Positions 1,423 through 7,964 of a stretch of DNA of 50,232 bases are shown here, piece after piece. A program made the translations under genes and the position numbers. The first letter of the stretch is position 1. Each line of letters starts with the position of its first letter. Under the pieces are notes generated by a model. The model ran no database searches and was not told the DNA's origin. It saw nothing but the letters and a program-made list of their open reading frames with translations. The stretch is from Spirochaetales bacterium (lineage in GTDB: Bacteria > Spirochaetota > Spirochaetia > UBA9216). The stretch lies in NCBI GenBank assembly GCA_016342585.1, contig JAEINK010000038.1, positions 1 to 50,232 on the forward strand, written 5' to 3'.

Positions 1423-1464
1423 TAAATTTAAAAAAGCACCTGAAATCATTGATTCCGGGTGCTT
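1423..1464 (-). terminator. Rho-independent terminator of the Rrf2-linked operon
   Basis: Read on the minus strand, AAGCACC (1464-1458) pairs with GGTGCTT (1440-1434) around a short loop and is followed by a T-rich tract (TTTTTAAATTT). It lies 40 bp past the stop of the zinc-ribbon gene and ends against the first possible ATG of the flavodoxin frame. Confidence 0.75.
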
Positions 1465-1503: not shown

Positions 1504-1746
1504 TTAGTAATCTACACCAGCGGCCTGCACATTGGCAGGATCAAAGGCGTGACAGGGGGTAACACCATAGATCATGTTACAATGTGGACATTTGGCCTCA
1601 AAAGTCTCCATTTCAAACTCCTTGTCACACTCCACACATTTTATTTCCAGGGGTACAGGCATGTATTGCTCCGAAAAACCCATCATCCTTACCTTCTCTA
1701 CGACCTCTTTCCCATTCTCAAAAGTTCCACTGCATCCATCGTGCAT
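1504..1746 (-). CDS. Small zinc-ribbon protein, last gene of Rrf2-linked operon
   Basis: An 80-residue protein with two CxxC knuckles, CVEC (about residue 37) and CPHC (about 54), plus isolated cysteines near the N terminus (C5) and in the tail (TPCHAF). This is a classic small zinc-ribbon or rubredoxin-like metal site. A strong GGAGG lies 6 bp before the ATG. It is 43 bp downstream of the ABC ATPase gene and is followed by a terminator, so it is the last gene of the operon. There is no signal peptide. It could be a metal or cluster carrier or a structural subunit of the system; function is unknown. Confidence 0.75.
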   Translation of the reverse strand: MHDGCSGTFENGKEVVEKVRMMGFSEQYMPVPLEIKCVECDKEFEMETFEAKCPHCNMIYGVTPCHAFDPANVQAAGVDY

Positions 1747-1789
1747 TTTATTCCTCCAATCCTGTTTCTAAGTTTCAAATTTAAATTAT

Positions 1790-2803
1790 TTACAGCTTGG
1801 TGAGGATCTCACCCTGCCTTAGTTTTGTTCGATAAGCCAGCAATTTTGAATCCATCTCTTCAAGGACGGCCAGTATGTCCCGTTCACTGGCGGTAGTTTC
1901 GATGATTTTATGAATACCGCCATTCTTTATGACTATCCTCTTATCGCCCATAAGGGCAAGTATGGGATCGTGGGTGGCCATGAGGACAACCTTGTCCTCC
2001 GATAGAAGAAGGTCCAATGCCTGTTTTCTATCAATTCCAGCATTTTCAATCTCATCGATAAGGATAATCGGAGACTTACTTAAGATGGCTGTGTCTGCAA
2101 TCATGAGAGCTCTCGACTGCCCCCCGCTTAAAGAGGTAATTGGCGTGTCCGGAGTGAATTTCTCACCCGCTAAACCATTGGCGCTGTCGATAATCCTCTG
2201 AATAATCTCCTCTTTGTTCTCTACGAGCCTGCTTTCGGCATGAAGTTCTACAAATTCATACACACTAAGATCCATTACGAAGTTCATATTCTGAGATATC
2301 TGGGCCACCAGTTTGTCAGAAGTAGAAAAACGCCATTTCTTATCGGGAATATCGTTATTTATTAATATCTTCCTGGAAGTAGGTGTATCCTCCTGGGCAA
2401 CCCATTCGATGTCCCCAAGCAGACGGGATTTACCCGAGCCGGTGGGACCAACAATACAGATAATCTCCCCCTGCTTAATTTCCATCCTTTCAAAGTTTTC
2501 GCGATTACCCGATTTATCGGTTCCGGGAAGTATGGTAACCGACTGCACCTTATCTTCATCCCTTCCGAGAAAAACGTTCATCTGCTTTACAAACTCGGCA
2601 ATTTGTTTGTAATGAAGCTCAACATCAATCGCACTTTCTTCGATCTCATCCTCATCAAAACCGGCAAAATAATCTTCCAGGCTTAAGTGATCATACCCCT
2701 CGATCTCAAGGTTGTTGTCGTTGAAATAGGAGATCAAAAAGGGGTAATTTTTAAGGAGCACTTCTATCTTTTCAGATCTGATATCCATAGTAATTGTTTT
2801 CAT
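1790..2803 (-). CDS. Orphan ABC-type ATPase with helical N-terminal module
   Basis: A 337-residue soluble ABC ATPase. Walker A GPTGSGKS is at 119-126, signature LSGGQ at 225-229, Walker B IILIDE at 246-251 and the switch histidine in MATHDP at 278, so all catalytic motifs are intact. About 100 residues precede the ATPase core. The segment LLKNYPFLISYFNDNN resembles the opening of the DUF1858-like module on the binding protein two genes upstream. No permease gene is present in the operon, so this is unlikely to be a conventional importer. A cytosolic chaperone-type role, as for SufC in Fe-S assembly, is one possibility (inference). It starts 10 bp after the GTPase stop with a good GGAG/AAGG ribosome site. 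Confidence 0.85.
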   Translation of the reverse strand: MKTITMDIRSEKIEVLLKNYPFLISYFNDNNLEIEGYDHLSLEDYFAGFDEDEIEESAIDVELHYKQIAEFVKQMNVFLGRDEDKVQSVTILPGTDKSGNRENFERMEIKQGEIICIVGPTGSGKSRLLGDIEWVAQEDTPTSRKILINNDIPDKKWRFSTSDKLVAQISQNMNFVMDLSVYEFVELHAESRLVENKEEIIQRIIDSANGLAGEKFTPDTPITSLSGGQSRALMIADTAILSKSPIILIDEIENAGIDRKQALDLLLSEDKVVLMATHDPILALMGDKRIVIKNGGIHKIIETTASERDILAVLEEMDSKLLAYRTKLRQGEILTKL

Positions 2804-2813
2804 CCTTCTTCTC

Positions 2814-3506
2814 CTAACCTTCCATCTTCATTTTGCGAACATTACCCATCTGAAACTCATCACCAATTCTGGTTTCACCAAGGCAATAGGAACAGAGGGC
2901 TGAAGGCATGGGGAACCTGAGTTCCTTACCCACAAGAGTTTTCACATTGTCTTTCTCGTCATAGAGAAGAGTCGATAATTCATAGCTCCCCTGACCAGTT
3001 AAACCATTCACATGCATGATAACAGCCCCGGGGTTCACAGTATTCACACGGGAAGCAAAAACTTCCCTTTCGGCCTGGGAGACAATGTCACCCTTGGTAA
3101 TAACGACAATATCCGCACTCTTGAGCATGGGCCCGATTTTTTTAGGTGTATTTATACCGCTTAAGTTATCGATCACACAGATTGCTTTTATACCTTTAAC
3201 ATAGGGTGAGCAGCGGTTACACAAGCCGGCAGACTCACTTATAAGGATGTCATACTCGTTTTCCACACCCCATTTGGTTACCTCTTCGATATTGCTGATA
3301 AAATAATGATCCGGACAGAGCGCTCCGGAGAGTCCCTTCTTCACGGGTATACCCGCTTTCTTATAAAGGAGATCATCATCAGTATAGAGGCAGTCAAACT
3401 TGGCGACTGCTGTTTTCATACCCCGCTTTGTGAGGGATTCAATTGTCTTAAGTATGACTGCTGTTTTTCCCGACGAGGGAGGTCCTGATATTGTTACAAG
3501 ATTCAT
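2814..3506 (-). CDS. SIMIBI-class GTPase, HypB/UreG/CooC-like, cysteine-rich
   Basis: A 230-residue P-loop protein. Walker A GPPSSGKT is at 8-15, an aspartate-bearing loop VAKFDC at 34-39, and a guanine-specificity-like TKGD at 137-140. Paired cysteines occur at 95/98 (LCNRC) and 205/208 (CSYC). The organisation fits the G3E and maturation-factor ATPase/GTPases that load metal into enzymes (HypB, UreG, CooC), although the cysteine pairs are not at the standard positions of those families. It is cytosolic. It sits between the binding-protein gene (15 bp gap) and the ABC ATPase gene (10 bp gap), which implies joint action. Nucleotide preference cannot be decided from sequence alone. Confidence 0.75.
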   Translation of the reverse strand: MNLVTISGPPSSGKTAVILKTIESLTKRGMKTAVAKFDCLYTDDDLLYKKAGIPVKKGLSGALCPDHYFISNIEEVTKWGVENEYDILISESAGLCNRCSPYVKGIKAICVIDNLSGINTPKKIGPMLKSADIVVITKGDIVSQAEREVFASRVNTVNPGAVIMHVNGLTGQGSYELSTLLYDEKDNVKTLVGKELRFPMPSALCSYCLGETRIGDEFQMGNVRKMKMEG

Positions 3507-3521
3507 TGTTTCGCATTTCTC

Positions 3522-4748
3522 CTATGACAGTGCACTTTTAAAAACGTTTTCACAGTGGGAAATCAGGGCGCTAATATCATGCTCATAGATATAATCCCAA
3601 CCCAGCCACATGAACTTATTCTCTTCGGGGATATGATTGTCTATTTCCGGATTTATGCTTGGGAACAACCCGTTATGTGATAAAACCTTGGCCACTTCAA
3701 CCCCCGAAAAAAAGTCAATAACAGGCTGGAGCTTTTCCTGCTTCTCCTTCTTTGAGAGCATGAAGATGGGACTTATAATAGCACCATCCGAGGGCCACAC
3801 AGCCTTCATGATGCCCCCCTCCTTAGCCATTTTGGTAAAAAAGTAAGGCATGATTGTTACAATGGGTCTGTCCTGCTTTTTTCTATCAGACTTAACCATC
3901 TGAGAAGGATGAAGGGATTCAAGCAGATTCTTACCGAGACGCTCCACCCCTTCATCACCATATTTCTTATGGATGTTCAAAAGGATTCCATTAAAAAGGT
4001 CAAAGTCTCCAACAGGAAGGGAGATCCTCTTTTCATAGAAAGGGTCCAGAACATCCTCCCAGCTTTGAGGAACAGGATGGTCTCCCAACTCTTTTGTATT
4101 GATAAGGAAGACAGCGGGCACCACACCTATCATGGAGTAATGCTTTTTGGGATCCTTTAAGGCAATATCCTTGAACGAGTCATTAAAACGGGAAAAGTTT
4201 GTGGTGTCCTCAAAGACATCCTGTTTCTTGAACTTTCCAATCATCTCTTCATCGAAAAACATATCAAAACCTGCGGAAATAAAAAGGTCCGGAAGGTCTG
4301 CCGCATCATCAACACCCTTTATATTATTTTCAACCCAGTCGAGGCCCATGGAGGCCGCCTTAAGTTCATGATTGATTTCAACATTCCCGGACAAGGTATA
4401 CCCTTTGATAAAATTATTAAACTCTTCAAGCAGGGGCAGTCTTACAGGACAGGGAAGAAGGCCTACAATATTTAATGCCTCTTTATCAGCCACCTTAGTG
4501 TTAGCGGTCAGGGTCAAATCGGTTTCATTATCCTTAGACTCAATAGCTTCTACCAGGAAACGAGCAAAAAGATCATAATCCATCTGTTTCAGCATGAGGG
4601 ACATCCCCAGGGTAACAGACTTGGCAAACTGTTCCCTCTTAGCCTTATCCTCCATATGTCCAAACCCGTTGGAGGTAAATACGGGGATTGTTTCGGGATA
4701 CTTATCAGCGATTTCCAATAGAGTGGTGTCTTTATCAAAATATGTCAT
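3522..4748 (-). CDS. Leaderless solute-binding-like protein with N-terminal DUF1858-like domain
   Basis: A 408-residue protein. Residues 5-35 (TTLLEIADKYPETIPVFTSN then GFGH) match the DUF1858/ScdA_N helical pattern, but the position often held by cysteine is His31. From about residue 90 the protein resembles type-2 periplasmic binding proteins of the iron/extracellular class (for example VPAVFLINTKELGDHPVPQS and SLGN-like C-terminal segments), including LPCPVR at 98-103. There is no signal peptide or lipobox, so the binding fold should be in the cytoplasm. The start is set by AGGAG 8 bp before the ATG. An operator-like inverted repeat lies directly upstream. The ligand is unknown; a metal, cluster or oxyanion is plausible given the neighbours. 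Confidence 0.7.
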   Translation of the reverse strand: MTYFDKDTTLLEIADKYPETIPVFTSNGFGHMEDKAKREQFAKSVTLGMSLMLKQMDYDLFARFLVEAIESKDNETDLTLTANTKVADKEALNIVGLLPCPVRLPLLEEFNNFIKGYTLSGNVEINHELKAASMGLDWVENNIKGVDDAADLPDLFISAGFDMFFDEEMIGKFKKQDVFEDTTNFSRFNDSFKDIALKDPKKHYSMIGVVPAVFLINTKELGDHPVPQSWEDVLDPFYEKRISLPVGDFDLFNGILLNIHKKYGDEGVERLGKNLLESLHPSQMVKSDRKKQDRPIVTIMPYFFTKMAKEGGIMKAVWPSDGAIISPIFMLSKKEKQEKLQPVIDFFSGVEVAKVLSHNGLFPSINPEIDNHIPEENKFMWLGWDYIYEHDISALISHCENVFKSALS

Positions 4749-4759
4749 GGTCTATACTC

Positions 4760-4787
4760 CTATTCTGGTACTCTTATACCTTATTTT
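4760..4787 (-). promoter_or_regulatory. Second copy of the Rrf2-linked operator
   Basis: A 28-bp site beginning CTATTCTGGTACT and continuing to ATACCTTATTTT. It matches the site on the rrf2 promoter at 20 of 28 positions, including the core GGTACT-N3-ATACC. It lies immediately upstream of the Shine-Dalgarno of the binding-protein gene, a position suited to repression. The right half is less symmetric than in the first copy. Confidence 0.55.
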
Positions 4788-4825
4788 AAGCAAAAAATAT
4801 CATTGCAAAATTACTCAGAGTTATC

Positions 4826-5224
4826 TCAGTTAAAATTGGAAAGTTTGATTTTATCGTAGGTGTTGTAGATATCTTTGGATATCCTATTAAAATCATCATT
4901 AAAGATACACATATTAAAGGAACAGCGGCTCTTGCCAAGGGGACAATCTCCAAGATTAACCTTCCCTTCGATTATCTCGTAGATGTCGAGAAATGATATA
5001 TCTTCGGCCGGTTTATCCAGGATAAAACCCCCGGAAGGCCCCCTGACAGATTTTACCAGCCCAGCCTTACTAATCTTCTGAAAAACCTTAGCTAAATGGG
5101 CCTGGGAAGCATTGAGCTCCTCCGCAAGATTCTTTACCGAAAGCCTTTCAGGCTGTTTACTGGCTATTAACGCCAGGCTGTGCATGGCAAGATACGCCCC
5201 TTCGGATATATTCAGTAGATTCAT
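4826..5224 (-). CDS. Rrf2-family transcriptional regulator
   Basis: A 132-residue Rrf2 protein. It has an N-terminal winged helix (LSVKNLAEELNASQAHLAKV recognition region and the wing RGPSGGFIL) and three cysteines at 94, 101 and 106 in GDCPLGKSRCSFNMC. That spacing is typical of Fe-S binding members such as IscR, NsrR and RsrR-type proteins. An in-frame start 13 codons earlier exists, but AAGGAAGGG sits 3-11 bp before the chosen ATG, and the earlier region holds the promoter. It is the first gene facing the binding-protein/GTPase/ABC operon. The operator overlapping its own promoter indicates autoregulation. The signal is likely cluster status, redox or iron (family knowledge). Confidence 0.88.
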   Translation of the reverse strand: MNLLNISEGAYLAMHSLALIASKQPERLSVKNLAEELNASQAHLAKVFQKISKAGLVKSVRGPSGGFILDKPAEDISFLDIYEIIEGKVNLGDCPLGKSRCSFNMCIFNDDFNRISKDIYNTYDKIKLSNFN

Positions 5225-5238
5225 TTCCCTTCCTTTAT

Positions 5239-5266
5239 CTATTGTGGTACTACAATACCTCAATAG
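5239..5266 (-). promoter_or_regulatory. Operator inverted repeat on the rrf2 promoter
   Basis: The 11-bp arms CTATTGTGGTA and TACCTCAATAG are separated by 6 bp and complementary at all but one position. The site covers the -10 element and probable transcription start of rrf2, as expected for an autorepressor site. A related copy lies at 4760-4787. Confidence 0.7.
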
Positions 5267-5280
5267 ATAAACGATGTCAA
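5252..5280 (-). promoter_or_regulatory. Sigma-70-type promoter of rrf2
   Basis: On the minus strand, a perfect -35 TTGACA (5280-5275) and a -10 TATTGT (5257-5252) are separated by exactly 17 bp. The -10 element lies inside the inverted repeat at 5239-5266. Confidence 0.7.
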
Positions 5281-6839: not shown

Positions 6840-7964
6840 ATGGAAATCCCCTGTTGTCCTAACCCAAAATGCACACATTTTCACAATCCTGATAAGGATT
6901 CCTGGTATGTTAAGTATGGAACCTACCGTTCAAGAGCCTTTGGTACAGTTCATCGTTACCGCTGCAAAGCCTGCGGCATTACTTTTTCTTCCCAGACCTT
7001 CTCAATCGATTATTATGCAAAAAAGAGAATCAGTTACGTCAGGCTTCTGCAGCACCTCAATTCAGCTTCAGGCCTGGACGATATAAGCCGCTTCTTCAAT
7101 CTGCGGGTGGAAACACTCGAAAACAGGTTGGAACGGGTTGCCCGTGTTGGTCTGGCGATTGAGGCGGCCCTGGAACAACACCTTCCCTGTACAGAAAACA
7201 TGACGGCCGATGGTTTTGAGACCTTTTCCTACTCCCAATACTATCCTTGTCATGTAAACACCTTTGTCGGTTCTGACTCCGAGTATGTTTACACCATGGG
7301 TTTTTCAAACCTCAGGCGCAAAGGGCGTATGACGGCGAAACAGAAAGCCCGCAGGGCGGAGCTTGAAAACCAGGGCAAAGCCAGTCCAACAGCCATACAG
7401 AAATCATTCCGAATCTGTACTGATAAAATCCTGCAACTTATTAAGAGTAAAGAAGTTAGTACATTCTCTGAAAGGAATAAACTCTATACGGATGAACATA
7501 AAGCTTATCCTTTGGCTTTCAGAAAACTGGACGGATTTGAGGAAACCTTCGACCATGTTCAGATATCATCGAAAAAACCAAGGACTGTTTACAACAACCT
7601 CTTTCCTTCCAACTACTTTCACCGTTTTCTGCGTATGGACCTTTCGGATCATACCCGTGAAACCCTGCAATGGGCGAAATGTCCCAGTGCCTTGATGGCA
7701 CGAATGGAAGCCTTTCGTTTTGCTTACAACTGTTTCAACCCCAGAAGGGTGAAGGCCAGTCGGGCCGGGGATTGGACCACCCATGCGGAAGCTGCCGGTA
7801 TTCCACGAGCGGTTCTATCAGATACAATTAATGAGTTTTGGGGAAAGAGGCCCTTTCTGGGTAAAACCAATTTAAGTGAAGATGAGATAAAAACCTGGAC
7901 GTGTCAGTGGACTAATCCAGGCAGGACAGTAGGCCGGAGGATTCCAAATTATATTTTTCTGTGA
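6840..7964 (+). CDS. Transposase with N-terminal zinc finger
   Basis: A 374-residue protein with an N-terminal zinc finger (C6, C11, C42, C45; RYRCKACGITFSSQTFS) as in IS1- and IS1595-like transposases. A middle region has acidic residues that could form a DDE triad: D124 in MTADGF, D218 in LYTDEH and E290 in MARMEAF (assignment inferred). A basic segment LRRKGRMTAKQKARR lies between the first two. AAGGAG lies 7 bp before the ATG. It is the only gene inside the inverted repeats and has no frameshift or stop, so the element is potentially active. I cannot place it in a named IS family with confidence. Confidence 0.82.
   Translation: MEIPCCPNPKCTHFHNPDKDSWYVKYGTYRSRAFGTVHRYRCKACGITFSSQTFSIDYYAKKRISYVRLLQHLNSASGLDDISRFFNLRVETLENRLERVARVGLAIEAALEQHLPCTENMTADGFETFSYSQYYPCHVNTFVGSDSEYVYTMGFSNLRRKGRMTAKQKARRAELENQGKASPTAIQKSFRICTDKILQLIKSKEVSTFSERNKLYTDEHKAYPLAFRKLDGFEETFDHVQISSKKPRTVYNNLFPSNYFHRFLRMDLSDHTRETLQWAKCPSALMARMEAFRFAYNCFNPRRVKASRAGDWTTHAEAAGIPRAVLSDTINEFWGKRPFLGKTNLSEDEIKTWTCQWTNPGRTVGRRIPNYIFL

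Follow-up and report, generated by a model that had tools for sequence, protein, structure and literature searches.

A conserved cassette encoding a leaderless binding protein, a UreG-like GTPase and a soluble ABC ATPase is associated with the hybrid cluster protein

Introduction

What can a substrate-binding protein (SBP) without an export signal do next to a HypB/UreG-like GTPase, an ATP-binding cassette (ABC) ATPase without a permease and a small zinc-ribbon protein? This question is raised by a cassette of five genes, led by an Rrf2-family regulator, in a 50,232-nucleotide stretch of a Spirochaetales bacterium (the window; contig C99 of draft genome G000), in which all open reading frames (ORFs) of the cassette lie on the minus strand. 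That five co-oriented genes of these families are separated by gaps of 10 to 77 bp had been stated in an initial annotation and was confirmed by the ORF positions and by Pfam and NCBIfam matches. A description of this gene set was not found in the open-licence literature searched. Our preferred explanation, to which we assign a probability of roughly 0.5, is that the products of the four structural genes act together as a metal-delivery machine in the cytosol, driven by GTP and ATP, which builds or rebuilds the metal centres of redox enzymes under nitric oxide (NO) stress. The hybrid cluster protein (Hcp), an enzyme associated with defence against NO, would be the probable main, but not sole, client of this machine.

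Conservation of the gene set

A search with the SBP gave 15 strong matches among 60 related genomes, the own genome counted. In GTDB contigs, 183 loci with the SBP were found, and the best 80 of these (L021 to L100, mostly metagenome drafts) were used as the locus set. By record title, 21 of them stem from Bacteroidota, 18 from Clostridia, 15 from Spirochaetota, 9 from Cloacimonadota, 7 from Fermentibacterota, 3 from Aminicenantes, 2 from Acidobacteria and 5 from other groups. SBP, GTPase and ABC genes form a run within one directon in 72 of the 80 loci, and the zinc-ribbon gene follows next in 58. If gap size is ignored, the three-gene run is found in 74 loci and all four genes in 67, with several contigs terminating inside the cassette. 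The initial annotation had proposed to seek the five-gene order in other anaerobes. The complete order of the four structural genes is present in each of the seven named phylum-level groups, and since the order is the same in many phyla, the gene set is beyond chance. Unlinked genes in related genomes had been named as a possible refutation. The linkage in 72 loci speaks for the set, whereas two spirochaete genomes (L210 and L211) carry split cassettes, with the GTPase-ABC pair far from the SBP and an HcpR box (see below) 5' of the GTPase gene in each.

Mean column identity was 76% for the GTPase, 68% for the ABC ATPase, 61% for the zinc ribbon and 54% for the SBP. At E <= 1e-10, and with diverged relatives counted, the homologue pool comprised 6508 GTPase and 2552 SBP matches. 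The source names listed among the 120 best matches per list indicate nickel hydrogenase or urease GTPases and Fe3+-import binding proteins, functions that are without support from the cassette context.

Association with the hybrid cluster protein

An Hcp gene is located on the same strand 1.9 to 2.8 kb downstream of the cassette in 19 of the 80 loci (11 Clostridia, 6 Cloacimonadota, 2 Spirochaetota), and its family was confirmed in the three cases tested (TIGR01703, 745 to 780 bits). Within a phylum sample of 296 genomes, Hcp was found in 13 of the 14 strong-cassette genomes compared to 77 of the 282 others (Fisher 1e-6), and by coordinates it adjoins the cassette in eight of these 14. The class sample of G379, consisting of 246 genomes, gave 11/11 cassette genomes with Hcp compared to 117/235 others (Fisher 6e-4). 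Both counts use SBP matches with E < 1e-100; if weaker, diverged matches are included, the values become 15/17 and 13/13. Among the 50 genomes behind the loci, 42 have Hcp, 41 of them above the cut-off.

Control sites upstream of the cassette

The HcpR2 box GTAACnnnnGTTAC was described by Rodionov and colleagues (PMC1274295). According to the same work, the Rrf2 family includes NsrR, a repressor that responds to nitrite, and IscR, which is an Fe-S regulator. In 1.84 Mb of loci, the box occurs 56 times, namely 32 times before the SBP, 6 times before Rrf2, 3 times before the GTPase, 12 times before Hcp and 3 times elsewhere, compared to 0 to 7 occurrences for each of six control palindromes. Counted over a span that begins 300 bp upstream of the called ORF and ends 150 bp within it (with regard to over-long starts; the short loci L001 to L016 were left out), the box lies before the SBP or an adjacent Rrf2 gene in 32/80 loci, and 59 permuted half-sites gave zero each. 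By group, these are 18/21 Bacteroidota, which are near relatives, 8/18 Clostridia, 3/15 Spirochaetota, 1/9 Cloacimonadota, 1/3 Aminicenantes, 1/2 Acidobacteria, 0/7 Fermentibacterota and 0/5 others. In the window genome, Hcp is encoded on C110 and has the box CGTAACATATGTTACG as well as a divergent CRP-family gene.

The Rrf2 regulator, for which three Fe-S-type cysteines had been predicted, retains them in 30/30, 29/30 and 30/30 homologues, respectively. Palindromes of the type TATTTAGGTATTnnnnTACCTAAATA, similar to the 26-bp one before the window cassette, are present in 11 of the 19 loci in which Rrf2 is adjacent to or leads the cassette. A wide Rrf2 regulon was rejected, as zero-mismatch operator sites were found solely at the cassette, in four of the eight genomes searched; with up to two mismatches, these eight genomes gave 25 strand hits versus 22 in the reversed-pattern control. 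From the patterns of boxes and palindromes, the cassette would therefore be a common target of HcpR, a predicted NO regulator, and Rrf2, a predicted Fe-S sensor. Hcp is linked to the cassette in part of the loci and co-occurs with it, and HcpR boxes precede many cassettes as well as Hcp genes, including the unlinked one of the window genome; the cassette is thus likely to be part of the nitrosative-stress response.

Properties of the encoded proteins

Besides SBP_bac_6 (264.5 bits), the SBP contains an N-terminal DUF1858 domain (43.2 bits), which the initial annotation had missed. Its claim of a binding protein without an export signal was borne out: in a hydrophobicity test based on the highest 12-residue window within the first 60 residues, 0/95 homologues had an export-type N-terminus, which is also the outcome for the signal peptide that would have spoken against it. 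The top values were at most 1.82, the highest originating from over-long ORF starts, compared to 2.27 to 3.52 in the secreted controls (six SBPs from the window genome and its relatives, 6/6 clear). The cysteine of the LPCP motif is kept in 94/95 SBPs and, according to our reading of the N-termini, lies near the position of a histidine in secreted relatives. The predicted model (mean pLDDT 84.6) matches the folds of FbpA/SfuA, AfuA and the pyridoxal phosphate (PLP)-binding P5PA. In FbpA, the iron ligands are an adjacent Tyr-Tyr pair. Since this pair of the Campylobacter protein (1y4t) aligns with Phe303-Phe304, the SBP lacks a ferric site of the FbpA type; the structural comparison with iron-binding periplasmic proteins that had been proposed thus shows a common fold, but iron binding in the manner of FbpA is not supported.

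No importer permease is encoded in the window's transcription unit, and no recurrent one was found across the 80 loci. Proteins with at least 4 predicted transmembrane segments number 16 in 11/80 directons and comprise MATE, UPF0014, ABC-2, PepSY, ABC exporter, chromate, BacA, FtsX, P-type ATPase and BPD_transp_1 kinds; the single BPD_transp_1 permease (L100) lies several genes upstream. The view of the ABC protein as an ATPase without a permease thus stands for the cassette itself, whereas diverged relatives ("type 2", see below) do adjoin FecCD importers.

The GTPase matches the Pfam cobW/HypB/UreG domain with 46.4 bits (cut-off 20.7). CPDH and GLC[NH]RC are conserved in 92/92 GTPases, and a profile alignment places CPDH on the CPH motif of Helicobacter pylori UreG, with a spacing one residue off. 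The C-terminal cysteine pair (CSYC) was judged from a 27-row alignment. Selenocysteine in the GTPase, considered for an in-frame TGA reported in two genome matches, was rejected because the TGA proved, on translation, to be the normal stop.

The ABC ATPase gave 60.7 bits with ABC_tran and a predicted model with a pLDDT of 85.9; the P-loop is kept in 86/90, the signature in 88/90 and Walker B in 85/90 homologues. For the zinc-ribbon protein, HypA and zinc-ribbon matches were sub-threshold only. Of 67 zinc-ribbon proteins, 59 carry MH[DEN]GC directly at the called start or close to it, five more have M[SAP]H[DE]GC, and three fit neither. By the rule of methionine removal, M[SAP]H[DE]GC would leave the histidine at position 2. 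The nickel ligands of HypA are the N-terminal amine together with His2 and Glu3, and a residue inserted before the histidine alters the site (PMC7055735). The UreG-like CPDH, the HypA-like N-terminal MH[D/E] and the soluble ABC protein together therefore suggest GTP- and ATP-driven metal delivery, with the two motifs as leads for a predicted metal handling rather than proof of it.

Proposed function and alternative explanations

In the proposed mechanism, Rrf2 (as the predicted Fe-S sensor) and/or HcpR would switch the cassette on upon NO damage to clusters. The metal would first be bound by the free N-terminal end of the zinc-ribbon protein (X-His-Asp/Glu, similar to HypA) and then be handed to the GTPase, in which CPDH would be the counterpart of the UreG CPH site. 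The leaderless SBP with its invariant cysteine may act as a carrier or docking adaptor. As a soluble engine, the ABC ATPase would open the client or drive release, perhaps paired with the SBP via related N-terminal domains, and GTP hydrolysis would free the metal into the client. SufC and the A2 protein of methyl-coenzyme M reductase (MCR) activation are soluble ABC engines as well. The metal, the client, the complex and the direction of transfer in this scheme are what we infer. It retains the cytosolic metal- or cluster-transfer machine under Fe-S or redox control of the initial annotation, which fits the findings, but adds the main context that was missing there, namely Hcp and the HcpR box.

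Several results weigh against this explanation. The exact box is missing in 48/80 loci, and 18 of the 32 boxed loci are closely related Bacteroidota; before the window cassette, an HcpR box is absent (best match with 3 mismatches of 10), and the window genome's Hcp on C110 is unlinked to the cassette. Relatedness inflates the co-occurrence, the 14 cassette genomes representing nine genera with 5/14 in one genus. Most Hcp genomes are without the cassette (77/90 and 117/128 in the two samples), and a special Hcp subtype accompanying the cassette was rejected, with one discriminating column between 22 linked and 20 cassette-negative Hcps. Nine cassette genomes, G134 (99% complete) and eight metagenome drafts (the remaining 8 of the 50 behind the loci), have no Prismane-family gene, i.e., neither Hcp nor carbon monoxide dehydrogenase (CODH); Hcp is for this reason a likely, but not the sole client. 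On the protein level, the GTPase scores below the curated equivalogs (HypB 47.8 versus 121.2 bits, UreG 26.2 versus 204.2 bits), and so does the zinc ribbon for HypA (22.5 versus 28.9 in Pfam, 18.9 versus 88.1 in NCBIfam). For the helical N-terminal domain of the ABC protein, hhalign gave a weak similarity to the DUF1858 region in the SBP (probability 39%, E 3e-4; control versus GTPase 0.1%). Finally, relatives of the SBP fold bind sugar phosphates, PLP and polyamines besides iron, so the ligand may be a non-metal.

The nine genomes also bear on the narrower idea of a dedicated maturase that assembles solely the hybrid (Fe-S-O) cluster of Hcp. It would account for the Hcp genes located 3' of Clostridia, Cloacimonadota and Spirochaetota cassettes, for the co-occurrence and HcpR boxes common to both, and for the resemblance of DUF1858 to TIGR03980, an NCBIfam domain named after hybrid cluster proteins (a sub-threshold hit). 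However, besides the carriers without Hcp or CODH, the Hcp-less Aminicenantes draft L071 has an HcpR box on its cassette, and neither the many Hcp genomes without the cassette nor the lack of an Hcp subtype agrees with so exclusive a role, which we regard as unlikely, if the least so of the alternatives. Next in rank, and already rather improbable, is a cytosolic ligand sensor or scavenger in which the SBP captures a small molecule formed under NO stress (PLP-type, a phosphate ester or a dinitrosyl-iron thiolate) for processing by the NTPases. The nearest solved folds do include PLP- and sugar-phosphate-binding proteins, and the FbpA tyrosine pair is replaced by Phe-Phe, but the HypA- and UreG-type motifs and the metal-related neighbours of the diverged relatives would be left unexplained.

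The same UreG/HypB-like CPDH and HypA-like N-terminus could instead serve nickel insertion into a nickel enzyme that is not yet recognised, which we rank just behind the sensor. Against it, neither the window genome nor the nine Hcp-less carriers have CODH, and [NiFe]-hydrogenase is missing from the window genome and found in 1/25 cassette genomes of the two samples, urease and other nickel enzymes not having been searched. This distribution led us to reject hydrogenase maturation as the cassette's role; three of five extra Hcp-less carriers and 0/50 controls have a [NiFe]-hydrogenase. A remnant of an iron ABC importer that lost its permease and signal peptide would agree with some public names of the SBP (Fe3+ transport or ABC transporter binding protein), but a leaderless set that is conserved in many phyla without a recurrent permease, and with strongly kept motifs, makes this very improbable.

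Beyond the metal-delivery machine preferred here, a bolder reading is possible, which we offer tentatively and hold to be doubtful: a new class of metallocentre machine, in which a periplasmic-binding-protein fold would have moved into the cytosol and would work with a transporter-type ABC ATPase as well as a UreG-like GTPase to strip or re-insert metal in NO-damaged enzymes. It would form the missing maturation or repair arm of the HcpR regulon in anaerobes, and its diverged relatives would serve nitrogenase-like and CODH-type enzymes. To our knowledge, no accessory factors have been established for the unusual cluster of Hcp. With its operator boxes, neighbourhood and phylogenetic pattern shared with Hcp, the cassette provides directly testable genes.

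Gene layout and neighbourhood

The features of the cassette are summarized in Table 1. The Rrf2 ORF was listed as 4826-5263 with a TTG start at 5263 set by the ORF finder; ATG 5224 behind GGAAGG is the better start. The gaps between Rrf2, SBP, GTPase, ABC and zinc-ribbon genes are 77, 15, 10 and 43 bp, respectively. A simple terminator scan has no entry for the hairpin at 1464-1430. A flavodoxin gene (881-1423) was rejected as a sixth member, as it lies beyond this hairpin.

Table 1. Coordinates of the cassette genes and of predicted control elements in the window.
Feature	Position	Strand	Characteristics
Rrf2-family regulator	4826..5224	-	132 amino acids from ATG 5224; CPLGKSRCSFNMC cysteine triad; Pfam Rrf2 96 bits
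DUF1858 + SBP_bac_6 protein, leaderless	3522..4748	-	408 amino acids; Cys100 (LPCP), His280, Met284 invariant
HypB/UreG-like GTPase	2814..3506	-	230 amino acids; P-loop, CPDH (64-67), GLCNRC (94-99), CSYC (205-208)
Soluble ABC ATPase	1790..2803	-	337 amino acids; extra helical N-terminal domain; LSGGQSRA, IDEIENAG
HypA-like zinc-ribbon protein	1504..1746	-	80 amino acids; N-terminus MHDGC, CxxC...CPxC, TPCHAFD
Sigma-70-like promoter TTGACA-17-TATTGT	5252..5280	-	10/12 matches; chance matches of such quality common
26-bp near-palindrome TATTGAGGTATTGTAGTACCACAATA, predicted Rrf2 operator	5240..5265	.	Overlaps -10 hexamer; sole zero-mismatch site in window genome
Second copy of operator pattern, between Rrf2 and SBP	4761..4786	.	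2 mismatches; reversed-pattern control also yields 2-mismatch sites
Hairpin + U run 3' of zinc-ribbon gene, probable transcript end	1430..1464	-	Fold z -3.5

Elsewhere in the window, the translations of two ORFs at 138-884 read as one EAL-type protein broken by a stop near 290, and a 374-residue ORF at 6840-7964 has an N-terminal zinc ribbon and is transposase-like by translation. In other genomes, the Rrf2 and SBP genes of Cloacimonadota-type loci are usually separated by a gene for a cupin (c14 cluster, found in ten loci; e.g., L022:7579-7974). Two Fermentibacterota loci (L033:13964-14779, L034:7129-7917) encode a UPF0014 membrane protein and an ABC ATPase a few genes past the cassette; UPF0014 is similar to the iron exporter FetB. 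Cluster c8, which adjoins the Marinifilaceae cassettes, was rejected as an enzyme and is, by its matches, a protein sorted by the type IX secretion system.

Diverged relatives

Diverged GTPase-ABC pairs are mostly accompanied by leaderless SBPs, and their neighbours point to metals and cofactors. In L104 (3-4973), a type-2 cassette lies divergently to two genes, one for a CooC-like ATPase and one for a membrane protein of DsbD_2/NicO-like type; this genome (81% complete) has no Prismane-family gene. Type-2 cassettes in L114 (6695-11538) and L113 (6237-10720) come with an S-adenosylmethionine methyltransferase and an HTH_17-PBP_like regulator, and the L114 neighbourhood also holds a DUF4213/DUF364 "heavy-metal chelation" protein. 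FecCD/BtuF-type importers lie beside diverged pairs in L192, L198 and L202, and a TonB receptor in L195. In L203 (7112-15553), a diverged GTPase, ABC protein and leaderless SBP are followed by NifH-like, two nitrogenase-component-like (NifDK-like), BtuF-like, FecCD and ABC genes, which read as an uncharacterised nitrogenase-like set with its own importer.

Two further arrangements were observed. L098 (15173-17328) contains a second ABC-GTPase pair with a 219-residue PF04060 Fe-S domain protein, a trio that recurs in L196 and L197. An orphan DUF1858-type SBP without GTPase or ABC partners lies beside an ordinary ABC ATPase gene in L116 (8453-9667).

Comparison with known systems

Nickel insertion by HypA and HypB resembles the cassette in its cobW/HypB/UreG-fold GTPase with Cys/His motifs and its small zinc-ribbon partner with an N-terminal MH[E/D]. 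However, the cassette proteins score far below the HypA and HypB cut-offs, the window genome has no [NiFe]-hydrogenase, and the cassette adds SBP-fold and ABC proteins as well as HcpR- and Rrf2-type control sites. Urease activation by UreG and UreEFD is comparable in that CPDH aligns with the CPH motif of UreG, but the GTPase reaches 26 bits compared to a UreG cut-off of 204 bits, and UreD, UreE, UreF and urease genes are missing among the annotated cluster members. The activation complex of MCR with its A2 component is a further case of ATP-driven metal-site activation in the cytosol, with different partners; the accessible part of its description names neither a GTPase nor an SBP fold (PMC12176620).

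The SBP_bac_6 importers (FbpA/SfuA, AfuA, P5PA) have the fold in common with the cassette SBP, which in contrast lacks export signal and permease and has DUF1858, the invariant LPCP cysteine and Phe-Phe in place of Tyr-Tyr. For clade B CODH with its NitT/TauT transporters, binding-protein and ABC genes likewise adjoin an enzyme of the Prismane superfamily; an identity of the two systems was rejected, as NitT/TauT has a transmembrane and periplasmic module and belongs to other COGs (PMC6344411, PMC13056359). The nitrosative-stress regulons of HcpR and NsrR do not list the cassette among the members named in the accessible part of PMC1274295, but they share with it the HcpR2 box GTAACnnnnGTTAC, an Rrf2-type regulator and Hcp.

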